From Gemmatimonadota bacterium (GTDB lineage: Bacteria > Gemmatimonadota > Gemmatimonadetes > Longimicrobiales > Gaopeijiaceae), in NCBI GenBank assembly GCA_007125125.1, contig SLDT01000041.1, forward strand, positions 1 through 40,141: 40,141 bases of DNA, given 5' to 3'. Shown here piece after piece: positions 1-12,295 of this stretch. Both the position numbers and the translations under genes were made by a program. Position 1 is the first letter of the stretch. Each line of letters starts with the position of its first letter. The notes beneath the pieces are model-generated. The model made no database searches. It was not told the origin of the DNA and saw only the letters and a list, made by a program, of their open reading frames with translations.

Positions 1-140
1 GGTTCGCGCGTCGCGGGCGGGGCCTCGGCCGTGGGCCGCCCCATCGAGGGCGGGGGGAGCTCGGGGGGTGCGGGCGTCGGCTCGGGCCCCGCGAGGGTGC
101 AGGCTGCGAGGAGCGCGAGAAGGGCGGGCGCCCCCGTCAG
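1..140 (-). CDS. Possible lipoprotein, partial, runs off the left edge
   Basis: Immediately after the tadA stop, the minus strand stays open to the window edge in a frame that reads like a lipoprotein: a hydrophobic stretch ALLALLAAC, matching a signal peptidase II lipobox (L-A-A-C), followed by a Pro/Glu-rich linker (LAGPEPTPAPPELPPP) typical of the tether behind a lipid-anchored Cys. The difficulty is the start. No ATG, GTG or TTG lies in this frame near the signal; the only candidate is a CTG at 138-140 overlapping the tadA stop codon. The true gene may start in the tadA tail at an unusual codon, or this may be chance. It could be settled with sequence left of the window. Confidence 0.25.
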   Translation of the reverse strand, partial: MTGAPALLALLAACTLAGPEPTPAPPELPPPSMGRPTAEAPPATRE

Positions 141-580
141 CGACGCCGCTCGGCCCGCCGCTCGCGGAAGAAGGCGCGCAGGAGCTCCCCGGCCGGTTCT
201 TCCAGGACTCCGCGCGTCAGCTCGGCGCGGTGGTTCAGCCTCGGGTCCTGGACGAGATTCCCGAGGCTCCCCGCCATCCCCGCCTTCGGGTCGGCTGCCG
301 CGAAGACCACGCGACGCACCCGCGCGAGCACGATCGCCCCCGCGCACTGTGCGCAGGGTTCGAGGGTCACGTAGAGGGTCGTGCCGGGGAGCCGGGGCAC
401 GCCCAGCCGGCGGGCGGCGGCCCGGAGCGTCACCACCTCGGCGTGCGCGGTCGGATCGGTCCATGTGATCGTCCGGTTGAAGCCCTCGGCCAGAATGTCC
501 CCCTCCCCGACGAGGACCGCCCCTACCGGGACCTCCCCGAGGAGCCATGCCTCTTCGGCGCGCTCGAGCGCGCGAGCCAT
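137..580 (-). CDS. tadA: tRNA-specific adenosine deaminase TadA
   Basis: TadA deaminates adenosine 34 to inosine in the anticodon of tRNA-Arg(ACG), widening codon reading. The 147-residue product has the complete cytidine/deoxycytidylate deaminase zinc site: H46-A-E48 (TAHAEV) with the proton-shuttling Glu, and C76-x-x-C79 (LEPCAQC). The N-terminal VPVGAVLV strand and the following NRTI segment also match the family. The chosen ATG gives a slightly short N-terminus; the frame is open upstream (reading GDRAW before the Met, as in longer TadA proteins), so translation may begin at an alternative codon in the gap after lexA. The gene lies 44 bases downstream of lexA on the same strand and is probably co-transcribed. 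The C-terminus is Arg-rich, consistent with tRNA binding. Confidence 0.95.
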   Translation of the reverse strand: MARALERAEEAWLLGEVPVGAVLVGEGDILAEGFNRTITWTDPTAHAEVVTLRAAARRLGVPRLPGTTLYVTLEPCAQCAGAIVLARVRRVVFAAADPKAGMAGSLGNLVQDPRLNHRAELTRGVLEEPAGELLRAFFRERRAERRR

Positions 581-624: not shown

Positions 625-1275
625 TCAGTGGGGGCGGCTGCCCCGCGGGAGGGGCGTCTCGTCGAAGCGCCGGTGCATCGCCGTGACCCGCCCCGCGATC
701 TCGAGGTCCTCGATGCGCTCGACTGCGAGGGCCGGCCCGCCGACCGCCGGGATGAGCTGGATGCTCCGTCCGTTCCGGCTGAACCGGTGCAGCTCGGGCT
801 CGCCCCCGAAGCGGATCGCCAGAAGGTCGCCATCGCGCACCCGTTCCCCCTCGACCGGCTCCACGAGGAGGAGGTCTCCCTCCTGCACCCCGGCCCCGAC
901 AGTCGCATCGGCCCCGACCCGCACGAGGTAGGACCCCGGCGGCCCGGCGATCCGGCGATCGAGGGTGAGGAAGGCCTCCGCGCCATCGGTCCGGCGCTCG
1001 GCACCCGCTCTCGGGAACCCCCCGTAGCAGGGCAGCGAGACCGCGTCGGGGTTGAGGTCGACCCCGAGGATCCGCACCCCCCGGCTTCGCGAGGGATCGC
1101 GCTCGAGGTACCCCTTGTCGGCGAGCGCCCGCAGGTGCTCGGAGACCGTCTTCGTGCTGCGGATCCCGAACTCCTCCCCGATCTCGCGGATCGAGGGCTG
1201 GTAGGTCCGGGTGCGGAGATACCGGACCATGTAGTCCAGGATCTTCTGCTCGAGATCGCTGAGGGCGGCAGGCAT
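625..1275 (-). CDS. lexA: LexA-family repressor lacking the catalytic Ser-Lys dyad
   Basis: The 216-residue protein has the LexA layout. A winged helix-turn-helix spans residues 1-70, with recognition region QPSIREIGEEFGIRSTKTVSEHL, and an S24-like C-terminal domain spans about 78-205. A possible Ala90-Gly91 bond sits where LexA normally self-cleaves. The family signature around the nucleophile (SGMSM in E. coli) reads GADAT, so the catalytic Ser is Ala124 (codon GCG at 904-906). The general-base Lys is replaced by His163 (codon CAC at 787-789). Anchors on both sides (LVRV before, G-V-x-x-GDLL after, VRDG between) keep the alignment firm. RecA-stimulated autocleavage therefore looks impossible, so the protein probably does not act as a classical SOS switch. 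It may regulate another stimulus, as do cyanobacterial LexA proteins lacking these residues. It has its own promoter upstream and tadA downstream. Confidence 0.9.
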   Translation of the reverse strand: MPAALSDLEQKILDYMVRYLRTRTYQPSIREIGEEFGIRSTKTVSEHLRALADKGYLERDPSRSRGVRILGVDLNPDAVSLPCYGGFPRAGAERRTDGAEAFLTLDRRIAGPPGSYLVRVGADATVGAGVQEGDLLLVEPVEGERVRDGDLLAIRFGGEPELHRFSRNGRSIQLIPAVGGPALAVERIEDLEIAGRVTAMHRRFDETPLPRGSRPH

Positions 1276-1344: not shown

Positions 1345-1374
1345 AGCTTAATCCCCGGCTCCCCGGGGTGTCAA
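1345..1374 (-). promoter_or_regulatory. lexA promoter with a palindrome in the spacer
   Basis: Reading the minus strand, a perfect -35 box TTGACA (1369-1374) is followed after 18 bases by TAAGCT (1345-1350), 70 bases before the lexA ATG. The spacer holds a perfect inverted repeat, CCCCGG and CCGGGG around a GGAG loop (1353-1368). This is well placed to be an operator, perhaps for LexA itself. Assignment as operator is inference. Confidence 0.6.
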
Positions 1375-1426
1375 GCACCATATGTTTCCCCCTTCCCTCT
1401 CCCGGAGGAAGGCACCGCAGTTCCGG

Positions 1427-2881
1427 TCAGGCTCCGTCGCGCTCCAGCCCTGCCAGCTGCTCCCTCCCCGCGCGGATTCGGGCGAGGGCGAGTTCGCGCC
1501 CCATCGCGACGAGGACCTCGAAGATTCCGGGGCTCACCGCCTCCCCGAGGAGGGCGACCCGGAGGGGGTGGATGAGCTTCCCCGCCCCGACCCCGCGCTC
1601 GGCGGCGAGGCCCCGGAGCGCCTCCTCGAGGGCATCCTCCCTCCATGGGGTCTCCTCGAAGGTGCGCTCGAGGGCCTCGAGGTGTCCGGCCGCTGCCGCG
1701 GGGTCCTTCGCCCAGTGCTTCCGGACCGCCTCGGGGTGGTAGGCGATGCGACGCTCGAGAAAGGGACGGGCCCGGTCGGCCAGGTCATCCAGGACCCGGG
1801 CGCGAGGGACCAGGATGCGGACGACCCCGGCGAGGCGCTCGCTCCCCAGCTCGCGCGCGGCGCGGGCGGCCTCCGGATACCCTTCTTCCAGTGCCGCGCG
1901 GACATGCTCGAGGAGCTGCTCGATCGGGAGCCGGGCGATGTGCTCGCCATTCATCCACTCGAGCTTGCGGGGGTCGAAGACCGCGCTCTTGCGGTGCACG
2001 CGCTCGAGGCTGAAACGCTCGACGAGCTCCTCCCGGGTGAAGATCTCCTCGTCCGTGCCGGGCGACCAGCCGAGGAGGGCAAGGAAGTTCGCCATCGCCC
2101 CGGGGAGGATCCCGAAGTGGGCGTAGTCCCCGATCGCGGTCGCCCCGTGGCGCTTGCTGAGGCGCTTCCCGTCGGGGCCGAGGATCATCGGGACGTGCGC
2201 GAAGTCGGGGACGGGGTTCCCGAGTGCCTCGTGCAGGAGAATCTGCTTCGGCGTGTTCGAGATGTGGTCGTCCCCGCGCATCACGAGGTTGATCCGCATC
2301 GCGGCATCGTCGGAGACGACGGCGAGGTTGTACGTGGGGGTGCCGTCGGTGCGCAGGAGCACGAGGTCCTCGATCGAGCCGTTCGGGAAGCGGGTCTCCC
2401 CGTGGACGCGGTCGACCCAGACGGTCTCGCCCGGGGGTACGCGGAAGCGGATCGCGAAGGGGGCGCCGGCCTCGAGGAGGCGGGCCTCCTCCTCCTCGGA
2501 GAGGGCGTCGGCCGCCTCGCGGGGGTAGGCGATGACCCTGTCCGGATCCTCCTCGCGGAGGCGGGCGAGCTCCTCGGGGCGGGTGAAGTCGCGGTAGGCC
2601 TTTCCCTCGTCGAGGAGCCGGAGGGCGTCGGCGCGGTGCCGCCCGACCCCCTCGGCCTGGTGCCAGGGGCCTTCGTCCCAGTCGAGCCCGAGCCATGCCA
2701 TCCCCTCGAGGATCGCCTCGACCATCGCGGGCGAGGAGCGCTCCCGGTCCGTGTCCTCGATCCGGAGCACGAAGGTGCCCCCTTCGCGGCGGGCGAGGAG
2801 CCAGTTGAAGAGCGCGGTGCGGGCGCCCCCGACATGGAGGTAGCCGGTGGGCGAGGGGGCGAAGCGGACGCGAAGACTCAT
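1427..2881 (-). CDS. gltX: Glutamyl-tRNA synthetase
   Basis: GltX charges tRNA-Glu with glutamate using ATP in the cytoplasm. The 484-residue protein starts at MSLRVRFAPSPTGYLHVGG, which contains the class I HIGH motif as HVGG, and carries the KMSKS loop as KRLSKRHG. These, the AP-S-PTG start and the RIEDTD segment are diagnostic. The open frame extends 35 codons further upstream, but that part does not resemble any GltX and the family start is the Met chosen here, preceded by CGGGAG as a weak ribosome site. The gene begins 34 bases after the second RND pump gene, so it may be read through from the efflux operon. lexA follows after a 151-base gap with its own promoter. Confidence 0.97.
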   Translation of the reverse strand: MSLRVRFAPSPTGYLHVGGARTALFNWLLARREGGTFVLRIEDTDRERSSPAMVEAILEGMAWLGLDWDEGPWHQAEGVGRHRADALRLLDEGKAYRDFTRPEELARLREEDPDRVIAYPREAADALSEEEEARLLEAGAPFAIRFRVPPGETVWVDRVHGETRFPNGSIEDLVLLRTDGTPTYNLAVVSDDAAMRINLVMRGDDHISNTPKQILLHEALGNPVPDFAHVPMILGPDGKRLSKRHGATAIGDYAHFGILPGAMANFLALLGWSPGTDEEIFTREELVERFSLERVHRKSAVFDPRKLEWMNGEHIARLPIEQLLEHVRAALEEGYPEAARAARELGSERLAGVVRILVPRARVLDDLADRARPFLERRIAYHPEAVRKHWAKDPAAAAGHLEALERTFEETPWREDALEEALRGLAAERGVGAGKLIHPLRVALLGEAVSPGIFEVLVAMGRELALARIRAGREQLAGLERDGA

Positions 2882-2915: not shown

Positions 2916-5900
2916 TCAGGTAGATAGGGAAGGAGCGCCCTCCTGTAAAGGTGGTGGCTGCCGTGGCTGCTCGGGCGCGCGCGCACCCTCGAGCTCCTCC
3001 TCGGTGCGCCCCATCCGTTCGAAGAGGAGGTAGAGGGCGGGTGTCGTCGTCAGCACGAAGATCGTCGAGGAGAGGAGCCCCCCGATGAGGGCGAAGGTGA
3101 GGGCGTTCCAGATCGTGGCGTCGACGGTCCGGGTGAAGAGGACGAGGGGGAGGAGCCCGAGGACGGTCGTCGCCGTCGTCATGAGGATCGGACGGATCCG
3201 CTCGAGGGTGCCGCGGATCACGGAGTCGTGGAAGGAGAGCCCGCTCTCGGCACGGACCCGGTTGATGTGGTCCACGAGGAGGATCGCGTTGTTCACGACG
3301 ATCCCTCCCATCATGATGACGCCGATCCGTGCCTCGCGGGTGAAGGCGGCCTCCGTGAAGAAGAAGATGAGAAAGACCCCGATGAGGGCCATCGGGACAG
3401 CGAGGAGCACGCAGAGGGGCTGGCGGATCGACTCGAAGAGGGCGGCGGTCACCATGAAGATGAGCCCGATCGCGATGAGGAGGACCATGGCGATCTGTTC
3501 CTCCTCCTCGGAGGAGATCCGCCACTGGGTCCGCTCCTGGATCGAGTAGCCCGGCGGAAGGACCATGGCCTCCTTGGCCTGGTCGAGGACGAGGTTCCCG
3601 AGGCGGGCGGGACCCCGGAACTCGTAGGCCACCGTTCGCTCGTACTGCTGGTTCTCGCGCCGGATCGCGGTCATGACCCGGCGCTCGTGCACGCTGATGA
3701 GGTCGGCTAGGGGGAGCTGCGTGCCCCGGCTGGTCGTCACGACGATCTCGCCCAGGGAGCGCACGTCGGCCTGTCGGAACCCGAGGAGCTTGACCTCGTA
3801 GGGCACGGACTCCCCGGAGAGCATCACTCGCCCGGTGCTCCCCGCACCACGCAGGTTGGCCTGCACGAGGTTCGCGACCTCCCGCACGGTGACATCATGG
3901 CGGTCGGCCGAGAGGCGGTCGATCGTGACGACGTACTCCGTGTCCCGGTCCCGGATGAACTGCGCAGACGCATTCGTGTCGACCTCGTGGACCCGGCTAT
4001 GGCGCGCGATCCCGCGGCCGAACGACTCCGCGATCTCCGCGAGTCGTTCGTAATTGTAGCCGAGGAAGGTGACCCGATAGGAGGGGATCGAGCCCCCCCC
4101 GGACGTCCCCCCGAAGGAGCGCCCCACCCCGACGACCGAGATGTTCGCCCCGGAGAATCCCAGGGCGAAGGCGCTGAGCTGCTCCTCGAGGATGAGGGGC
4201 TCGATCGTGAACTCGAGCTCCTCGGGGAAATCGACGCGGATCGAGGCCCGCGTGCCCTCTACGTTGGCGGTGAAGCGCTCGACGACCGCAAGACGCCCGA
4301 GCCGGTCTTCGAAGTAGCGCGAGAGCTGGTCGACCCGGTCGAGGTCCGAACCCCGCGGGAGTGAAATCGTGATGCTGATGAAGCTCCGCATCGCCGAAGC
4401 TCCGCCCCCCCAGAGTGCCTGCCGATTCACATGATTGTCGAAGAGGTGCCAGGAACCCGCGAAGCAGAGGGCCGCGACGACCACCGTGACCCACGGGGCA
4501 CGCAGGGTCATCCCGAGCAGTCCTGCATAGAACCGGATGTAGAGCGGTGGGCTCTCCAGCGCGTAGGCGGGGAGGGTGGCCCGGTCGACACCGAGACGAT
4601 CGGGGTCCGGGCCGCGGTCCGGGCCGGCGGCCTCGGCGAGGGTGGCCCCGGTCGCATCCTCCTGCTCGCGGCGCCCGAGGATTCGGGCGGTGAGCGCGGG
4701 GATGAAGGTGAAGGCCACGAAGATCGAGGCGAGAAGGGTGAGCCCCACCACGATCGCGAGAGGGAGGTAGTAGATCCGGAGCTCCCCCTGGAGGTAGACA
4801 AAGGGAACGAAGACGATCAGTGTCGTGAGGGTCGAGGCCAGGATGGGGAGTGTCACGTCGCGCGCTCCCCTTTCCGCAGCCTCGGCAGGGTCGCTCCCCT
4901 GCTCCCATTTCCGGTAGATGTTCTCGAGGACGACGATCGAGTTGTCCACGATGAGGCCGAACCCCAGCGCAAGACCCATCAGCGTCAGGAGGTTCAGGGT
5001 GAGCCCACCGAAGTAGACGAGGTTCACCGCGATGAGGATCGAGAAGGCGATCGTGGCGAAGACGATTCCGGCAGTCCGGAAGGAGCGGAGGAATCCCAGG
5101 AGCACGAGAAAAATGACGACGCCCGCGATCGCCGCCCGGTTCCTCAGGTCCGTGAGCTGCGCCCGGATCTCGTCGCTCTGGTCTCCGGTCAGGATGAGGT
5201 AGGCACCCGCGGGGTTCAGCACCTCGAGCTCCCGCACTCGCTCTTTCACCGTCTCCGAAAGCTCCACGAGGTTCGCCCCTCGTTCGGCCCGCACCTGGAA
5301 GCTTACCGCGGGTGAGCCATCGATACGGAAGTGCCGACTCGGCTCCTCGAAGGTGTCCCGGATCACCGCTACATCGTCGATGCGGATGGGCCGACGCCAG
5401 CTACCGGGGAGAATCGCCTGCCGGAGTTCCGCCGCACTCGCGGGCCGGGTCCGGATCTGGATCCCCCACTCGCGCTCGCTCTCCCGCACCGTCCCGGCCT
5501 CCCGCACGAGGTCGAGCTGGGTGATCGCCGCCTGGACCGCCTGGGGCTGAAGTCCCAGGGCGGCGATCTCGTCGGGGTCGAGTTCGATCTCGATGACCCG
5601 GGCCCGGCCTCCCTGGACGATGACCTCGCTCACCCCCTCGATCCGCAGCACCTCGGGCGCAACGACCTCGTCCAGATGTGCGCGCAGCCGCTCGAGGAGG
5701 TGTGGGCCCGTGAAGGTGTAGGAAAGCAGGGGGCGCGTCGCCTGCTGTTCGAACTCTCTCGGTACCCAGGCCTGGACCTGGATTGGGGCCACTCCCTCTG
5801 GAAGGTCCTCCTCGAGGGTTGCCATCCGGTCGGCGAGCTCCATCCGCACGAAGTCCATGTCGACACTGCGGTTGAACTCGATCGAGATGCTCGCCGACCC

Positions 5901-6152
5901 TTCGCGGGTCGTCGAGGTGATCCGCTGGACCCCCTTGATCTGCTGGATCGAGGCCTCGATCGGCGCGGTCGCGAAGGCCTCGACGGTCTCCGGCGAGGCG
6001 CCCCGCCACTGGAAGTTTACCGAGAGTCGGGGAAAGCTTGCGTCCGGGAGGAGTTCGAGGGGGATGCTCGTGAAGGCGGCCACCCCGAGAAGCCCGACCG
6101 AAACGTAGACCATGGCTACCGCTACTGGCCGCCGGATCGAGAGACGGATCAT
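2916..6152 (-). CDS. RND efflux pump inner-membrane subunit (second of two)
   Basis: This is a 1078-residue RND permease of the hydrophobe/amphiphile exporter type, which uses the proton gradient to drive substrates from the periplasm or inner membrane through a TolC channel. It has the usual start (RLSIRRPVAVAMVYVSVGLL as first helix), a large periplasmic loop, and TM4 with GFGLIVDNSIVVLENIYRK. A second helix bundle carries GGIVVNNAILLVDHINR, the second-repeat counterpart. The DN pair in TM4 replaces the DD of AcrB, which is usual in this subgroup. Its ATG overlaps the stop of the upstream RND gene by four bases (ATGA), indicating translational coupling. Two adjacent RND genes suggest a heteromeric pump as in MdtBC, though two separate homotrimers sharing one adaptor are possible. 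The substrate is unknown. Confidence 0.93.
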   Translation of the reverse strand: MIRLSIRRPVAVAMVYVSVGLLGVAAFTSIPLELLPDASFPRLSVNFQWRGASPETVEAFATAPIEASIQQIKGVQRITSTTREGSASISIEFNRSVDMDFVRMELADRMATLEEDLPEGVAPIQVQAWVPREFEQQATRPLLSYTFTGPHLLERLRAHLDEVVAPEVLRIEGVSEVIVQGGRARVIEIELDPDEIAALGLQPQAVQAAITQLDLVREAGTVRESEREWGIQIRTRPASAAELRQAILPGSWRRPIRIDDVAVIRDTFEEPSRHFRIDGSPAVSFQVRAERGANLVELSETVKERVRELEVLNPAGAYLILTGDQSDEIRAQLTDLRNRAAIAGVVIFLVLLGFLRSFRTAGIVFATIAFSILIAVNLVYFGGLTLNLLTLMGLALGFGLIVDNSIVVLENIYRKWEQGSDPAEAAERGARDVTLPILASTLTTLIVFVPFVYLQGELRIYYLPLAIVVGLTLLASIFVAFTFIPALTARILGRREQEDATGATLAEAAGPDRGPDPDRLGVDRATLPAYALESPPLYIRFYAGLLGMTLRAPWVTVVVAALCFAGSWHLFDNHVNRQALWGGGASAMRSFISITISLPRGSDLDRVDQLSRYFEDRLGRLAVVERFTANVEGTRASIRVDFPEELEFTIEPLILEEQLSAFALGFSGANISVVGVGRSFGGTSGGGSIPSYRVTFLGYNYERLAEIAESFGRGIARHSRVHEVDTNASAQFIRDRDTEYVVTIDRLSADRHDVTVREVANLVQANLRGAGSTGRVMLSGESVPYEVKLLGFRQADVRSLGEIVVTTSRGTQLPLADLISVHERRVMTAIRRENQQYERTVAYEFRGPARLGNLVLDQAKEAMVLPPGYSIQERTQWRISSEEEEQIAMVLLIAIGLIFMVTAALFESIRQPLCVLLAVPMALIGVFLIFFFTEAAFTREARIGVIMMGGIVVNNAILLVDHINRVRAESGLSFHDSVIRGTLERIRPILMTTATTVLGLLPLVLFTRTVDATIWNALTFALIGGLLSSTIFVLTTTPALYLLFERMGRTEEELEGARAPEQPRQPPPLQEGAPSLST

Positions 6153-9100
6153 GGCAGGCGCTCCTCCTGGAAGACCCCTCCCTCCGCCACCGCACCGGCA
6201 TGCGCCGGTCCACGCCGAGGGAGGGGATTCCGCTCACCCGCGAGGGCGAGGCGTGCCCCCTCGACGAGGGAGAAGAGCACAGGAACGACGAGGAGCGTGA
6301 GGAAGGTCGCGACGAGTAGCCCCCCGATCACCGCGATCGCCAGGGGTGCACGCAAATCGGCCCCCCGTCCGAATCCGAGTGCCATCGGAGTGAGTCCGAG
6401 CACGGTCGTCACCGTGGTCATCACGATCGGGCGAAGCCGGACCAGCCCCGCCTCCACGATCGCCGACCGAAGCTCGCTCCCGCGCTCCCGTGCCTGAACG
6501 ATGAAGTCGACCTTCACGATCGAGTCGTTCACCACGATCCCGATCAGGATTACGATCCCGATGAGCGACATCGTGTTCAGCCCCTCTCCCGCCAGCGCGA
6601 GAGCGAGAATCGCACCGATCAGAGCGAGGGGGACCGCGGCAAGGATCGTGAAGGGGTGCACGAAGGACTCGAACTGCGCAGCCAGGATCATGTAGACAAG
6701 GACGAGCGCCAGGGCAAAGGCGAATCCGAGGTCTCGGAACGATCGCCGCATCTCCTCGTTCTCGCCCCCGACCTCGACCCGGATCTCGGGGGGTGCGGGG
6801 GTCTGGGCGAGCGCCCCCTGGACCTCGTCGATCGCCCGATCGAGCCCTCCCGTGCGGACGTCGGCAAGGACGGCCACGACCCGACCCTGGTCCTCGCGCC
6901 GGATCTCGGCGGGCCCGACCGTCATCTCGATGTCGATGAGCTCGGTCATCGGCACCCGGTTCACCGTGAGTTCGCGAAGCGTCCCCACATCGTGCCGCAG
7001 GTCGTCCGGAAGACGCACGATCACCGGGATCCTGCGGTCGAAGGCAATGAACTGGGTCGCGATCTGTCCGCGCATCGCGTACTCGATCGCATTCGCGACG
7101 TCTCGAGGCTGGAGGCCGAAGAAGGCCACGTCTTCGGCTCGCACGTTCACGCTGTACTGCGGGAACCCCCTCTCCGACCCCACCCGGAGGTTCGTGACTC
7201 GCGCAAGCCCGGACATCCCCCCGATCAGCTGCTCCGCGTAGTCAAGGGCGAGGTCGAGGTCATGGGTCCGAAGCCGCACCGCGATGTCGGCATCCGAACC
7301 TCCGAGGAGCTGACCGAGGGCCGTCGCCTGCCCCGCCTGGAGAGCGAGGCTCGCCCCCTGGGTCACTCCCTGGAGGGGACCACGGACCCGCTCCATGACC
7401 GGGTCCGTACGCGCACCCTCCCGTACCCGGACCTGGAAGCGCGCCGTGTGGAGCCCGGAGGGGTGGTCCGACGACACGAGCTGCCTCACGTCGCGGCCAA
7501 CATGCCCGAAGACGGCGTCCACGTCGGGGTCGGCCAGGAGCACGGCCTCGACTTCCTCCGACATCACGTTCGTCCGGGAGAGCGCCGTCCCCTCGGGGAG
7601 CTCGATCCGGACCTCGAAGGCCCCCTGGTCGACCCGGGGAAGGAGGTTGCGGTCAAGTGCCCACCCTGTCCAGGCCGCCGCTGCGAAGACCAGCCCCGCG
7701 ATCGCGAGCACGGTGAACCGGCGGTCGAGCGACCACACGAGTGCGCGATGGTATCGCCCGGTGAAGCGGTCGAAGAGTCGATCGAAGGCCGCGAGCGGTC
7801 GCGAGAAAACCGCGCCCAGGACCCGGCCGATCGAGCGTCCCCAGAAGAGTGCGAGCTCCCGCCCGACTGCCCACGCCAGGCGAAGGAGCCAGAGTGGAAG
7901 GCGGAAGAGCGTCCGCAGGCCCCACCAGACCCGCCGGAAGAACCCTTTCGGAGCAGGGCCGGGAACCAGTGAACCCGGCCCCCGCGTCTCGTCCCGCTCG
8001 CCCATCCGGAAGCGCGCCGCCATCGCCGGGAGGAGGGTGAGGGCCACGAGGAGCGAGGCGAGGAGGGAGAATGCCACGGCGAGGGAGAGGTCGCGGAAGA
8101 GCTCGCCCGCGACCCCCTCCACGTAGATGATGGGGCCGAACACCGCGATCGTCGTGAGGGTCGACGCGGTGATCGCCCCGGCCACCTCGCGCGCCCCCGT
8201 CGCCGCCCCCTCGAGCGCCTCCGCCCCCCCCTCCCGGTGTCGGAAGATGTTCTCGAGCACGATGATCGAGTTGTCGACGAGCATCCCGACCCCGAGGGCG
8301 AGGCCACCCAGGCTCATGATGTTCAGCGAGACGCCGAACGCCTCCATGAGGGCGAAGGTCCCGATCACCGAGATCGGGATGGCGAGCGCCACCGCGATCG
8401 GGTAGCGGGGCTGGCGCAGGAAGAGGAAGAGGACGAGGAAGGCGAGCACTCCCCCCCAGAGGAGCGCGCTCGTCACGCTGTCGATCGAGTCCGAGATGAA
8501 CCCTGCCTGGGAGTGGGCCACATCAAGGGTGACCTCGGGGAACTCGTCGCGAAGGAGCCCAAGCACCTCGTCGACGAGACGCGCCACCTGGACGGTGTTC
8601 GCCCCCGACTCCTTGAAGACGAGGAGCCCCACCGCCTCCCGGCCGTTGTAGCGTGCGATCGCGTCGCGGTCGGCGAAGCCATCGACGACGCGCGCGACAT
8701 CCCGGACGTGCACGATCCTCGACCCGCCATCGGCCGTCGCTCGCTGGGAGACTCGGACATCCGCGATCTCGTCAACCCGGCGAAACTCAGCGAGGGTCCG
8801 CAGAGGATACCGTCGGGCACCGTCCATGATCGTCCCCCCGGCCGCCTGGTGGTTCGCCGAGGCGATCCGCTGGCTGATCTCCTGGATCGTGACCCCGAAG
8901 GAGCGCAGCCGGTCGGGATCGACCTCGACGACGATCTCCCGCTCGAGCCCTCCGCTCACCGTCGCCTGGGCCACCCCATCGAGCTGTTCGAGGCGACGTC
9001 GGAAGACGTTCTCGGCAAGCTCCTTCGTCTCCCAGAGGTCGTCTCCCGCGACCGAGACGACCATGATCGGCTCCGCCTCGGGATCAACCCGCAACACCCT

Positions 9101-9478
9101 CGGTCGCGAGGCCCCGTCGGGGAGCTGCCCCCGCACGTTGTCGAGCCGCTCCCGGGTGTTGAGCATGGCGAAGTCCATGTTCATTCCCCACCCGAAGCGG
9201 AGGGTCACCAGGCTCACCCCGTCGCGCGAAATCGAGGTGACCTTCTCGACACCGGGCACGGAGGCCACGTTCCGCTCGATCCGCTCGGTCACGAGCCGCT
9301 CCACCTCGGCGGGCGAGGTCTCCGGGTAGCTCGTGTAGATCACGAGCCGGGGATAGCTTACGTCGGGGAGCAGGTCGACCGGCAGCCGAGCAAAGGAGAT
9401 CAGCCCGAGGAGGATCACCGCGAGGAAGAGCATGCTCACGGCGACGGGGCGCCGGACCGCCAGTCGCGAGATCGACAT
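6149..9478 (-). CDS. RND efflux pump inner-membrane subunit (first of two)
   Basis: This 1109-residue RND permease is the first pump gene of the operon. The N-terminus (RLAVRRPVAVSMLFLAVILLG) is the standard first helix. The first periplasmic loop holds SYPETSPAEVERLVTERIE and SVPGVEKVTS, strongly conserved in the family. TM4 reads GVGMLVDNSIIVLENIFRH, and the matching second-half helix reads GIVILIGIVVNDSIVKVDF. Between TM6 and TM7 is an unusually long basic/aromatic cytoplasmic linker (about residues 495-570, with RRVWWGLRTLF and similar), longer than in AcrB. The ATG sits two bases after the tolC-like stop and the stop overlaps the next pump start. It is probably the partner of the downstream pump in one tripartite complex. 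Confidence 0.93.
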   Translation of the reverse strand: MSISRLAVRRPVAVSMLFLAVILLGLISFARLPVDLLPDVSYPRLVIYTSYPETSPAEVERLVTERIERNVASVPGVEKVTSISRDGVSLVTLRFGWGMNMDFAMLNTRERLDNVRGQLPDGASRPRVLRVDPEAEPIMVVSVAGDDLWETKELAENVFRRRLEQLDGVAQATVSGGLEREIVVEVDPDRLRSFGVTIQEISQRIASANHQAAGGTIMDGARRYPLRTLAEFRRVDEIADVRVSQRATADGGSRIVHVRDVARVVDGFADRDAIARYNGREAVGLLVFKESGANTVQVARLVDEVLGLLRDEFPEVTLDVAHSQAGFISDSIDSVTSALLWGGVLAFLVLFLFLRQPRYPIAVALAIPISVIGTFALMEAFGVSLNIMSLGGLALGVGMLVDNSIIVLENIFRHREGGAEALEGAATGAREVAGAITASTLTTIAVFGPIIYVEGVAGELFRDLSLAVAFSLLASLLVALTLLPAMAARFRMGERDETRGPGSLVPGPAPKGFFRRVWWGLRTLFRLPLWLLRLAWAVGRELALFWGRSIGRVLGAVFSRPLAAFDRLFDRFTGRYHRALVWSLDRRFTVLAIAGLVFAAAAWTGWALDRNLLPRVDQGAFEVRIELPEGTALSRTNVMSEEVEAVLLADPDVDAVFGHVGRDVRQLVSSDHPSGLHTARFQVRVREGARTDPVMERVRGPLQGVTQGASLALQAGQATALGQLLGGSDADIAVRLRTHDLDLALDYAEQLIGGMSGLARVTNLRVGSERGFPQYSVNVRAEDVAFFGLQPRDVANAIEYAMRGQIATQFIAFDRRIPVIVRLPDDLRHDVGTLRELTVNRVPMTELIDIEMTVGPAEIRREDQGRVVAVLADVRTGGLDRAIDEVQGALAQTPAPPEIRVEVGGENEEMRRSFRDLGFAFALALVLVYMILAAQFESFVHPFTILAAVPLALIGAILALALAGEGLNTMSLIGIVILIGIVVNDSIVKVDFIVQARERGSELRSAIVEAGLVRLRPIVMTTVTTVLGLTPMALGFGRGADLRAPLAIAVIGGLLVATFLTLLVVPVLFSLVEGARLALAGERNPLPRRGPAHAGAVAEGGVFQEERLP

Positions 9479-9480
9479 CC

Positions 9481-10887
9481 TCAGCCTCCTGCGCCTGCTT
9501 CGAGCACCCCTTCCAGGTCGAGCCCAAGCGCCTGCTCGAGCAAGATGATGGCGCGCTCGAAGGCGTAGCGGGCCGCGAGCTCCTGTCGGGCTGCCTGCGC
9601 TGCCTGCGTCGCCGCACTCTGGAGCTCGAGGTAGCCTCGCGTGCCGATCCGGTACCCCTCGACCACGTACTCGAGCTGCTCCTGGGCAAGAGCCGCCCGA
9701 TCGGCCTGAATGCCCAAGCTTCGGTGCTGGTGCAGGAGATCCGTGATCAGGATGCGGACCTCACGCTCCTGGACATTTCGTGCCTGACGGACCGACTCCT
9801 GCTGGTTCCGGAGCTGGATCCCGGCCTGGGCCTGCTGGATGTCGCGCCGGAAGTACTGCCCGAGATCCGGCAGCAGGATCGAGAGCGACATCGTCCGGTC
9901 CCAATCGCTGTCCGGATTCAGGTCGAAGAACGCATCACCCCCGCGCACGAACCCCTGGCGCGAGGTGCTCCAGTTGAAGCTGAGAGTCGGGAGCCACTGG
10001 GCCCGTACCTGGTTGACGCCACGTCGCCGCGCCTCCAGCTCCCCCTCGGCCTGCACCACCTGTGGGCTCGAAGTACGAGCGAAGTGCACGAGCGCCTCGA
10101 CATCGAGGCGGGTCGGATCGAACTCTGTGAGTTCGACCGGAACGATTTCGAACTCCCGTAGTTCCGGGTCGCCGATCGCATGCCCAAGGGCAAAACGAGC
10201 CGTCTCGAGCCCTGAACGAACTTGGTCGAATTGGCTTTCCTGCTCCGCCACATCGAGTTCGGCCTGCCGCACATCAAAGATGTCGCGCCGCCCGACTCGC
10301 CAGAGTTGACGCGCCACTTCCCGGTTCCGCCGCGCGTTCTCGAGGAGCCTCTCCTCGAGCTCGAGCCCGGTGAGGCGCTCCTGAACGTCGAGGAAGGCAC
10401 GCTTCACCTCGGACTCGAGGGCACGACGCTGTACCCCGAGCGAGAGCTCCTGCAGACGGGTCTCGTCGTCCTGGGCTCGCAGGTTCATGAAGGTCTGCGC
10501 GTTCAGCGAGAGGGAGAACCCTGCAGACTGGCTGCTCGAAGAAGTCCGTACGGTCGTGACCTCCGGATTCGGGAGGGGGTTCCCGAAGAAGTCCTCGGCC
10601 ACGGTCTGCCGTCGCCAGTTCATGTTCGTTGCGAGAAAGCGGAGCTGCGGCTGGGGCAGGACATCGAGCCAGGCCCCCCGACGACTCAGAGCGTTCACCT
10701 CGAGGGCCCGTTCCGCCTGCCGAAAGCCGGGGTTTCGCTCGAGAGCTCGGCCGAGCGCTTCTTCCAGCGTCATTCGCTCGGCCCCAGGCTCCTGCGCCGC
10801 AATGGGAAGAGGCCCTCCCCATGCCGCGAACAGTACGGACGCCAGAAGCGCGGCCCACACCCGACCCCTCGTCGCGGCTCGACTCAT
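9481..10887 (-). CDS. TolC-family outer-membrane efflux channel
   Basis: The 468-residue product has an N-terminal Sec signal (basic start, hydrophobic core AALLASVLFAAWG, Ala-rich cleavage region near PIAAQE). Two outer-membrane-efflux-protein repeats follow. The first begins MTLEEALGRALERNPGFRQAERALE, the classic TolC repeat opening; the second begins near VEALVHFARTSSPQVVQAEGELEARRRGV. Long amphipathic helices rich in Arg/Gln/Glu and beta strands such as PTLSFNWSTSRQGF fit a trimeric barrel plus periplasmic tunnel. The start codon overlaps the membrane-fusion-protein stop by four bases. It provides the exit duct for the two RND pumps encoded next. Confidence 0.9.
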   Translation of the reverse strand: MSRAATRGRVWAALLASVLFAAWGGPLPIAAQEPGAERMTLEEALGRALERNPGFRQAERALEVNALSRRGAWLDVLPQPQLRFLATNMNWRRQTVAEDFFGNPLPNPEVTTVRTSSSSQSAGFSLSLNAQTFMNLRAQDDETRLQELSLGVQRRALESEVKRAFLDVQERLTGLELEERLLENARRNREVARQLWRVGRRDIFDVRQAELDVAEQESQFDQVRSGLETARFALGHAIGDPELREFEIVPVELTEFDPTRLDVEALVHFARTSSPQVVQAEGELEARRRGVNQVRAQWLPTLSFNWSTSRQGFVRGGDAFFDLNPDSDWDRTMSLSILLPDLGQYFRRDIQQAQAGIQLRNQQESVRQARNVQEREVRILITDLLHQHRSLGIQADRAALAQEQLEYVVEGYRIGTRGYLELQSAATQAAQAARQELAARYAFERAIILLEQALGLDLEGVLEAGAGG

Positions 10888-12119
10888 CGGAAGACGATCC
10901 CACCCTCGACCGCCACGCTCTCGACGACCCGGATCTCGACATCATGCCCGATCGTCTGGTGCCCCTCGACGAGGACGAACTCACCTTCGTGGACCATCGA
11001 GGTCTCGGGGTGCTCGACGATCTCGAAGTAGTGCTCGTTCCGCTCGCCCAGGGTCACGTAGCGCCACTCCGTGATCCCATGACCCTCGTCGTTCAGGTTC
11101 CGGGCCACGAAGACGACGGGCCGACGATCCCGTTCCACGACCGCGTTCCTCGGCACCAGGGTCCTGTCGGGGAAGTCCGTTGCTTCGATGTTCACCCGCG
11201 CGAACATCCCCGGAAGGATCCTGTGACCCGGGTTGGGCATCTCGAGCGTGATCCGTGCACTTCGCCCGTCCCGGTCCACCATGGGGTTGACCGTTCGCAC
11301 GCGTGCCTCGAATTCCCCCGGGAAGGCGGTGAACCGTACCACGCCCCGCCGGCCCGCCTGAAGGAAGGGGACCATCGACTCGATCGCCTCGACATGGATC
11401 CGGATCGGATCGAGCTCGAGCAGGGTGAGCACCTCGGCTCCATTCCCCATCCAGGCGCCCTCCACGGCACGCAGGTTCGCAACTCTCCCGGCAAAGGGCG
11501 CCCGCACCCTGGTCCACTCCAGGCGCATTCGCGCCTGCTCGAGGGCGAGCTCCGCCTCGTTCAGCCCGCTCGTGACCCGGGCAATTCTCTCGCGCTCGGC
11601 GAGCACATCCCGATCGACCACCCCGCCGGGCCCGAGAACCCCGGCACGTCGAAGCGCCGCCGTGTCAGCATCGATGATCATCTGCTCCCGGTACTGGGCC
11701 TCGGCGGTGAGGAGCCGCCACTCGGCCTGCGCCACCTCCATTGACACCTCCGAGGTGTCAAGCTGGATGAGAATGTCCCCCTCCGATACGAGGTCGTTCT
11801 CCCGGACATGCACCTCCTGGACGAGGCCGGACGCCCGCGTCGCGACCTGGCTCTCCCGATTCGCGACCGCCTCGCCCGCACTCGAGAGGTGAATCCAGAG
11901 GGTGTCCCGCAGGACTGGCGCGACTTCGACCGGCTGAGCGGCAGCGAAGCGAAGCGCCGGATCGACCTCGACTCCCTCCGTATCCGGGAGATCGGGACCG
12001 GCCTGGGCCGTCGACCCGTTTCCATTGTCATCCATCAGCCGCCACACGATGCCCGCGCCAAGGATCGCGAAGATCAAAAGAAGAGTGAGCAGACTGAGCA
12101 CGCCACCGGAGAGCTTCAT
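10884..12119 (-). CDS. Membrane fusion protein (periplasmic adaptor) of the RND efflux system
   Basis: The 411-residue adaptor joins the RND pump to the TolC channel. It starts MKLSGGVLSLLTLLLIFAILGAG, a single anchoring helix, followed by a periplasmic lipoyl/barrel-sandwich half (SAGEAVANRESQVATRASGLVQEVHVREND), a helical hairpin (about residues 120-200, Glu/Ala-rich), the second lipoyl half (VRAPFAGRVANL) and beta-barrel and membrane-proximal domains. The frame is open a further 52 codons upstream, but that part is Trp/Cys/Arg-rich and looks non-coding, so the Met next to the helix was chosen. No clear ribosome site precedes it. It is first in the operon, and its stop overlaps the next gene by four bases. 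Confidence 0.9.
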   Translation of the reverse strand: MKLSGGVLSLLTLLLIFAILGAGIVWRLMDDNGNGSTAQAGPDLPDTEGVEVDPALRFAAAQPVEVAPVLRDTLWIHLSSAGEAVANRESQVATRASGLVQEVHVRENDLVSEGDILIQLDTSEVSMEVAQAEWRLLTAEAQYREQMIIDADTAALRRAGVLGPGGVVDRDVLAERERIARVTSGLNEAELALEQARMRLEWTRVRAPFAGRVANLRAVEGAWMGNGAEVLTLLELDPIRIHVEAIESMVPFLQAGRRGVVRFTAFPGEFEARVRTVNPMVDRDGRSARITLEMPNPGHRILPGMFARVNIEATDFPDRTLVPRNAVVERDRRPVVFVARNLNDEGHGITEWRYVTLGERNEHYFEIVEHPETSMVHEGEFVLVEGHQTIGHDVEIRVVESVAVEGGIVFR

Positions 12120-12295
12120 CGGAGCACCATCGCCGTGGGAGGTACGGTCGGACCCGTTGTCATCGGATCCGGTGAAGGTTGAGACACGACATCTGCAGAG
12201 AGGATCCCTCGCCTCCAAGGTCGGGACCCGAGCGGGGCACCACCATGGCAGGGAGGGCCATCGATCGATGCGCACCTCATACCGTCCACTTCGTC

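Follow-up and report, generated by a model that had tools for sequence, protein, structure and literature searches.

LexA is the textbook self-destroying repressor. The LexA of Synechocystis sp. PCC 6803 (sll1626), according to excerpts of three papers (PMC3091678, PMC7567884, PMC4759255), lacks both the Ala-Gly site and the catalytic Ser, is suggested not to run the SOS response, represses non-SOS genes and is possibly controlled by phosphorylation. A LexA without the catalytic Ser is, on those excerpts, already known from Synechocystis. Leptospira interrogans Copenhageni has a second LexA, also named LexA2, which an excerpt of its description (PMC3789691) reports to be of low identity, to have a different operator, to keep Ser and Lys and to lie in a prophage-like region; both Leptospira repressors were depleted after UV. 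IrvR of Streptococcus mutans is LexA-like and outside RecA control, and, as excerpted (PMC7101444), it self-cleaves and requires the dyad. Nothing on a LexA2-type LexA in Gemmatimonadetes, Gemmatimonadota or Longimicrobi was found in the open-licence PMC literature.

The gene described here, lexA2, lies in a stretch of 40,141 nucleotides (the window) from a gemmatimonadote draft genome of 274 contigs. Its features, and its neighbours, are given below; f1 is the family of the window's genome and f3 an intact sister family.

625–1275, minus strand: lexA2, 216 aa, LexA-family regulator lacking the Ser-Lys dyad (ORF list, Pfam, NCBIfam, alignment)
1063–1266, minus strand: winged-helix DNA-binding domain (PF01726), residues 4–71, near-invariant within f1
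664–1050, minus strand: S24/LexA-type C-terminal domain (PF00717 and structure matches), residues 76–204, fold retained, catalytic residues gone
904–906, minus strand: Ala124, where E. coli LexA has its nucleophile, Ser119 (alignment)
787–789, minus strand: His163, where E. coli LexA has its general base, Lys156 (alignment)
1003–1008, minus strand: Ala90-Gly91, resembling a cleavage site by chance alone, one column off and unconserved (alignment)
1027–1029, minus strand: Cys83, in 46 of 46 f1 sequences and 1 of 11 of f3 (residue counts)
628–630, minus strand: C-terminal His216, the final residue being His in 45 of 46 f1 sequences (residue counts)
1427–2881, minus strand: gltX, conserved upstream neighbour
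137–580, minus strand: tadA-like deaminase gene, conserved downstream neighbour, gap of 44 bases

The window LexA2 is likewise a LexA without Ser and Ala-Gly, and it most likely works like the Synechocystis protein in the sense of being non-cleaving. Unlike that protein, LexA2 is an additional paralogue in a genome that has an intact LexA, and its Lys is gone too; moreover, the loss recurs across the class, and f1 has fixed Cys83 and the C-terminal His. While the Leptospira LexA2 is placed by its excerpt in a prophage-like region, LexA2 of Gemmatimonadetes is vertically inherited. IrvR shares with LexA2 that it is a LexA-like regulator but, on the excerpt, still self-cleaves and needs the dyad. 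The genome's own canonical LexA (L002, G000:C269) has the same domain order and belongs to the same family of proteins, but it is 26% identical to LexA2, has Ser, Lys and Ala-Gly in place and has its own TTCGG-N6-TTCGG boxes. This answered a question raised by the initial annotation, namely whether the genome contains another LexA that is intact. Finally, intact LexA2 orthologues (f3 and part of the family f5) occupy the same position behind gltX and have the same type of DNA-binding domain, but retain Ser, Lys and mostly Ala-Gly.

Domains, locus and distribution of LexA2

The window protein matched Pfam LexA_DNA_bind (PF01726, E 1.4e-19) and Peptidase_S24 (PF00717, E 3.5e-8) and narrowly passed the NCBIfam model TIGR00498 for lexA (116.9 bits, cut-off 110.95); its relative L153 scored under that cut-off (105.6 bits). 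Together with the alignment to E. coli LexA, these matches bore out the initial reading of the gene as a LexA-family member with Ala124 and His163 at the positions of the catalytic Ser and Lys. The same reading had taken Ala90-Gly91 for a remaining cleavage site, which did not hold: the dipeptide is unique to this sequence and lies one column off the scissile bond, where the aligned columns are Arg-Ala. These columns contained Ala-Gly or Cys-Gly in 0 of 46 f1 sequences versus 11 of 11 in f3.

An AlphaFold model built from 28 f1 sequences had a mean pLDDT of 82 and a pTM of 0.62. Its best Foldseek match was LexA 3k2z (E 3.1e-13). With VIA-align, 189 residues of the model were aligned to the LexA–DNA complex 3jsp (Z 13.1, rmsd 6.1), and the comparison with the LexA C-terminal domain 8b0v was better than that of the whole chain (Z 11.8, rmsd 3.5). 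The high rmsd against 3jsp probably reflects domain placement in the model. Based on the Pfam, AlphaFold and structure matches, LexA2 has the fold and domain order of LexA, and only the chemistry is missing.

In f1, f2, f3 and f9, tadA followed lexA2 wherever the contig extended far enough, confirming the neighbour named at first, with gltX on the other side. The latter preceded lexA2 on the same strand in most loci read; in a minority the gltX match was absent or approximately 2 kb off. In f5, gltX was ahead of lexA2, and tadA was looked for behind it and not found. The conserved gltX-lexA2-tadA order implies one locus and vertical inheritance: lexA2 is a vertically inherited positional orthologue of the class Gemmatimonadetes and not a mobile gene. 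Upstream of gltX, the window contains a four-gene RND-type efflux cluster (2916–12275), in which two genes encode AcrB-like pumps of 1078 and 1109 aa and the other two an HlyD-type adaptor and an outer-membrane efflux protein.

Matches to LexA2 of the window type were found in 175 of 298 genomes of the phylum (E 1e-20). Counted from match rows, 67 of the 73 f1 genomes keep lexA2, and among these 67 rows a stop within the matched stretch occurred only in G299. The match was absent in the other six f1 genomes, so that the gene is either dispensable in places or missing from assemblies. The best named matches were Gemmatimonadetes MAGs, some labelled Longimicrobiales and many from CSSed bins, a label which we take to mean soda-lake sediment; 80 named loci overlapped genomes of the phylum set and were excluded from the counts.

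The canonical LexA (query, the G000:C269 protein) was matched in 287 of the 298 genomes (E 1e-35), and both catalytic residues were present in all 22 copies read. It was not found at E 1e-35 in G002, G026 and G266, three f1 genomes with lexA2. The G026 assembly consists of 2 contigs; LexA2 may be its sole LexA, or a canonical copy may lie outside the assembly. Additionally, an f1 genome without a lexA2 match encoded a third, clearly different LexA type with intact Ser and Lys (L070, G031:C137), and an f2 genome carried, beside its dyad-less lexA2, an additional LexA-like gene that has both Ser and Lys (L033, G046:C143).

Loss of the dyad across the class

The alignment and tree comprised 139 rows, of which 133 were LexA2 and six were canonical LexA used as the outgroup, and trait columns were excluded. 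Identical proteins, the 16 other canonical copies beyond the outgroup, L033 (start not placeable), L070, L222 (truncated) and L241/L242 (repeats of L153/L155) were left out of the tree; the dyad counts are without the matches of f7 and f11 and without some of those of f5 and f1. Ser and Lys were both present in all 11 f3 sequences and in 27 of 64 from f5, where 33 had neither and four had Ser only. No f1 sequence had both (neither in 45 of 46, Ser only in one), and all four f9 sequences had neither. The eight f2 sequences, none with both, were divided among neither (three), Ser only (three) and Lys only (two).

If irreversible, loss of the dyad must have occurred 12 times on the tree. With branches below 80, 90 and 95 SH-aLRT collapsed, 10, 7 and 7 losses remained, respectively, the tree being the product of a short search with SH-aLRT support alone and 55 of its 136 inner branches being weak. 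Regain of the dyad would escape this method but is considered unlikely. In genus g80, intact, Ser-only and dyad-less members occurred together, so some of the losses are recent. On this alignment and tree, dyad loss is family-wide in f1 and repeated across the class Gemmatimonadetes.

The residues replacing the dyad varied. In f1, Glu (17) and Asp (16) predominated at the Ser position, followed by Ala and Arg (4 each) and five residues seen a single time; at the Lys position His (16) and Tyr (15) predominated, ahead of Phe (8), Arg (2) and again five residues seen a single time. The closest relatives of the window protein (genus g53, L153–L155, approximately 62% identical) had Glu and Tyr at these positions.

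Median dN/dS values of the DNA-binding and C-terminal domains were 0.040 and 0.196 in dyad-less f1 pairs, 0.085 and 0.165 in dyad-less f5 pairs, and 0.064 and 0.109 in intact pairs (13, 11 and 13 pairs, respectively, all hand-picked and with dS saturated in some). Constraint on the C-terminal domain is weaker in f1 than in the intact copies, yet the domain is far from neutral. The versions that lost the dyad are under continued purifying selection and are not decaying.

The lexA2 promoter and the probable SOS box

The following elements were located upstream of lexA2 in the window.

1345–1374, minus strand: conserved sigma70-type promoter, with TTGACA at 1369–1374, a spacer of 18 bases and TAAGCT at 1345–1350
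1353–1368, no strand assigned: GC palindrome CCCCGG-N4-CCGGGG in the promoter spacer, unconserved and at chance frequency
1374–1390, minus strand: weak candidate operator GGGAAACATATGGTGCT, with three mismatches to an element upstream of lexA2 in related genera

The initial annotation had proposed that lexA2 has its own promoter, and conservation of TTGACA and the −10 backs this. TTGAC with a −10-like hexamer at 16–18 bases was found in 74 of 102 distinct lexA2 upstreams, and among the 59 f1 promoters whose spacer is 18 bases long, conservation covered the −35, the −10 and their flanks but not the middle of the spacer. The GC palindrome, put forward at the same time as the first binding site to map, does exist. 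As an operator it was rejected: the window held five matches with at most one mismatch versus 3.01 expected, the spacer was unconserved in relatives and the palindrome was absent from the lexA2 promoters of the closest ones. In three measured loci of the dyad-less f5 genera g70 and g72 (L186, L187, L189), the gltX match ended 12–32 bases before lexA2, and the gene's own promoter seems to have been lost there.

In genera g18 and g22, lexA2 is preceded by a loose inverted repeat, GGGAAACAWACGRTTCC, and an element of this type could be an autoregulatory site. A search with GGGAAACAWACGRTTCC gave 11 sites in six genomes versus 0 with the reversed pattern, and a relaxed pattern gave 127 versus 18 (summed over 15 genomes), against a reversed control that is biased in holding words rare in GC-rich genes. 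The genome-wide matches formed no coherent regulon, several sites read in context lay within open frames, and the two exact g53 sites did not align with each other. Given the open-frame sites, the non-aligning g53 sites and the biased control, no lexA2 regulon is claimed. Repeated half-sites were also sought in four sets of lexA2 upstreams, and none clearly exceeded the shuffled controls. GAAA-N3..6-TTTC near the −35 occurred in 20 of 59 promoters, a count made uninformative by a shuffle expectation (0.04) that was far too low, the conserved CTTTC having been broken by shuffling. In the four genomes searched, the promoter pattern of lexA2 did not recur.

The direct repeat TTCGG-N6-TTCGG, with an 11-base period, was present in all 45 distinct canonical lexA upstreams (versus 0.03 in shuffles), more than once in 42 of them, and in 0 of 136 lexA2 upstreams. 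The window's genome had 18 such sites versus three with the reversed pattern, including the following.

G000:C269:13461–13502: box of the canonical lexA
C169:8137–8170: double site before a gene with an IMS polymerase domain
C80:10465: site before a PHP/DNA polymerase III alpha gene

The latter two genes presumably resemble ImuB and DnaE2 of other SOS regulons. The genome also encodes recA, with a one-mismatch copy of the box upstream. The repeat is a probable SOS box of these Gemmatimonadota; nothing on the SOS box of Gemmatimonadota was found in the open-licence PMC literature. Because the boxes lie at canonical lexA and SOS-like genes and at none of the 136 lexA2 upstreams, canonical LexA is most likely what switches SOS, with LexA2 outside it. 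Two DUF222 genes of the window's genome (PF02720; L280:1–1344 and L278:1737–2753) also stand behind TTCGG-N6-TTCGG boxes.

LexA2 as a putative non-cleaving regulator

From its sequence, lexA2 very probably encodes a non-cleaving LexA paralogue, that is, a dimeric winged-helix DNA-binding regulator in which both the operator-reading part and the C-terminal fold of LexA type were kept and the autoprotease and scissile bond were lost. The residue changes make it a well-grounded prediction that LexA2 is not switched by RecA-stimulated self-cleavage. LexA2 would contact its own operators through the conserved winged helix, as a dimer joined by the C-terminal domain, and would act as a repressor that is not removed via RecA upon DNA damage. 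Its activity would be set otherwise: by a steady level, by a ligand or redox change at Cys83, by modification or by regulated proteolysis. The family-wide and repeated loss, the constrained DNA-binding domain and the newly fixed Cys83 and C-terminal His were missed in the initial annotation.

A sequencing or assembly error at 787–789 and 904–906, a concern voiced at the outset, can be rejected; the contig does come from a draft genome in 274 contigs, but the dyad was missing from all 46 f1 sequences, with varied residues in its place, and from the nearest relatives. Action in trans is possible in principle for LexA-type domains, and LexA2 might still be cleaved by the intact LexA or through an unusual nucleophile. 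We consider this very unlikely, as the scissile bond is gone as well throughout f1, and the Ser and Lys positions are mostly Glu or Asp and His, Tyr or Phe. The repeated loss of dyad and cleavage site, and the approximately fourfold nonsynonymous differences of the f1 C-terminal domain relative to the DNA-binding domain, would also fit a decaying pseudogene, the relic of a redundant second LexA; such decay is highly improbable given dN/dS values well below 1 in both domains, the conserved promoter and the retention of lexA2 in 67 of 73 f1 genomes with a single interrupted match. A role in damping SOS, by sharing operators or heterodimerising with canonical LexA, is favoured by the shared fold and the presence of both genes in one genome. 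It is nevertheless unlikely: the recognition helices differ (STKTVSEHL versus SLATVHEHV), and no lexA2 upstream contains the canonical box.

How a non-cleaving LexA2 might be controlled in f1 is hinted at by two traits. Cys83 was present in 46 of 46 f1, 1 of 11 f3, 2 of 64 f5 and 4 of 8 f2 sequences, is located on the strand ahead of the old cleavage loop, and 22 of the 46 f1 proteins have a single Cys. A terminal His was found in 45 of 46 f1, 2 of 11 f3 and 4 of 64 f5 sequences, and T at −3 in 38 of 46 f1 proteins, on a tail (residues 211–216) that is otherwise variable in f1 and predicted to be disordered (pLDDT under 50). Since both CAC and CAT encode the terminal His in f1 and the stops TGA, TAG and TAA are all used, the constraint on the tail acts on the protein. 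By these counts, Cys83 and the terminal His are derived traits fixed in f1, and they suggest that LexA2 of this family gained a new control.

Tentatively, the f1 autoprotease may have been replaced by another switch, built on Cys83 (sensing redox state or metal), on the T-x-H tail (as a metal ligand or a tag recognised by a protease) or on both, a possibility to which the near-fixation of these residues in f1, their rarity in intact f3 and in f5 and the protein-level constraint on the tail lend some weight. Against it, other dyad-less lineages (f9 and most of f5) lack both traits, and no structure puts Cys83 close to the tail. Confined to one family, the traits cannot be correlated with cleavage loss over independent events. 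It is more speculative that a class-wide LexA paralogue repeatedly shed its autoprotease and, in f1, was rebuilt with Cys83 and the T-x-H tail from a suicide repressor into a reversible regulator responding to redox, metal or proteolysis.

LexA2 as a non-cleaving paralogue probably does a different regulatory job from LexA. The repeated loss at one locus, with the DNA-binding part near-frozen, provides natural replicates for asking what an uncuttable LexA does, and positional orthologues with the dyad (f3, part of f5) and without it (f1, f9, part of f5) lend themselves to direct comparison in vitro.
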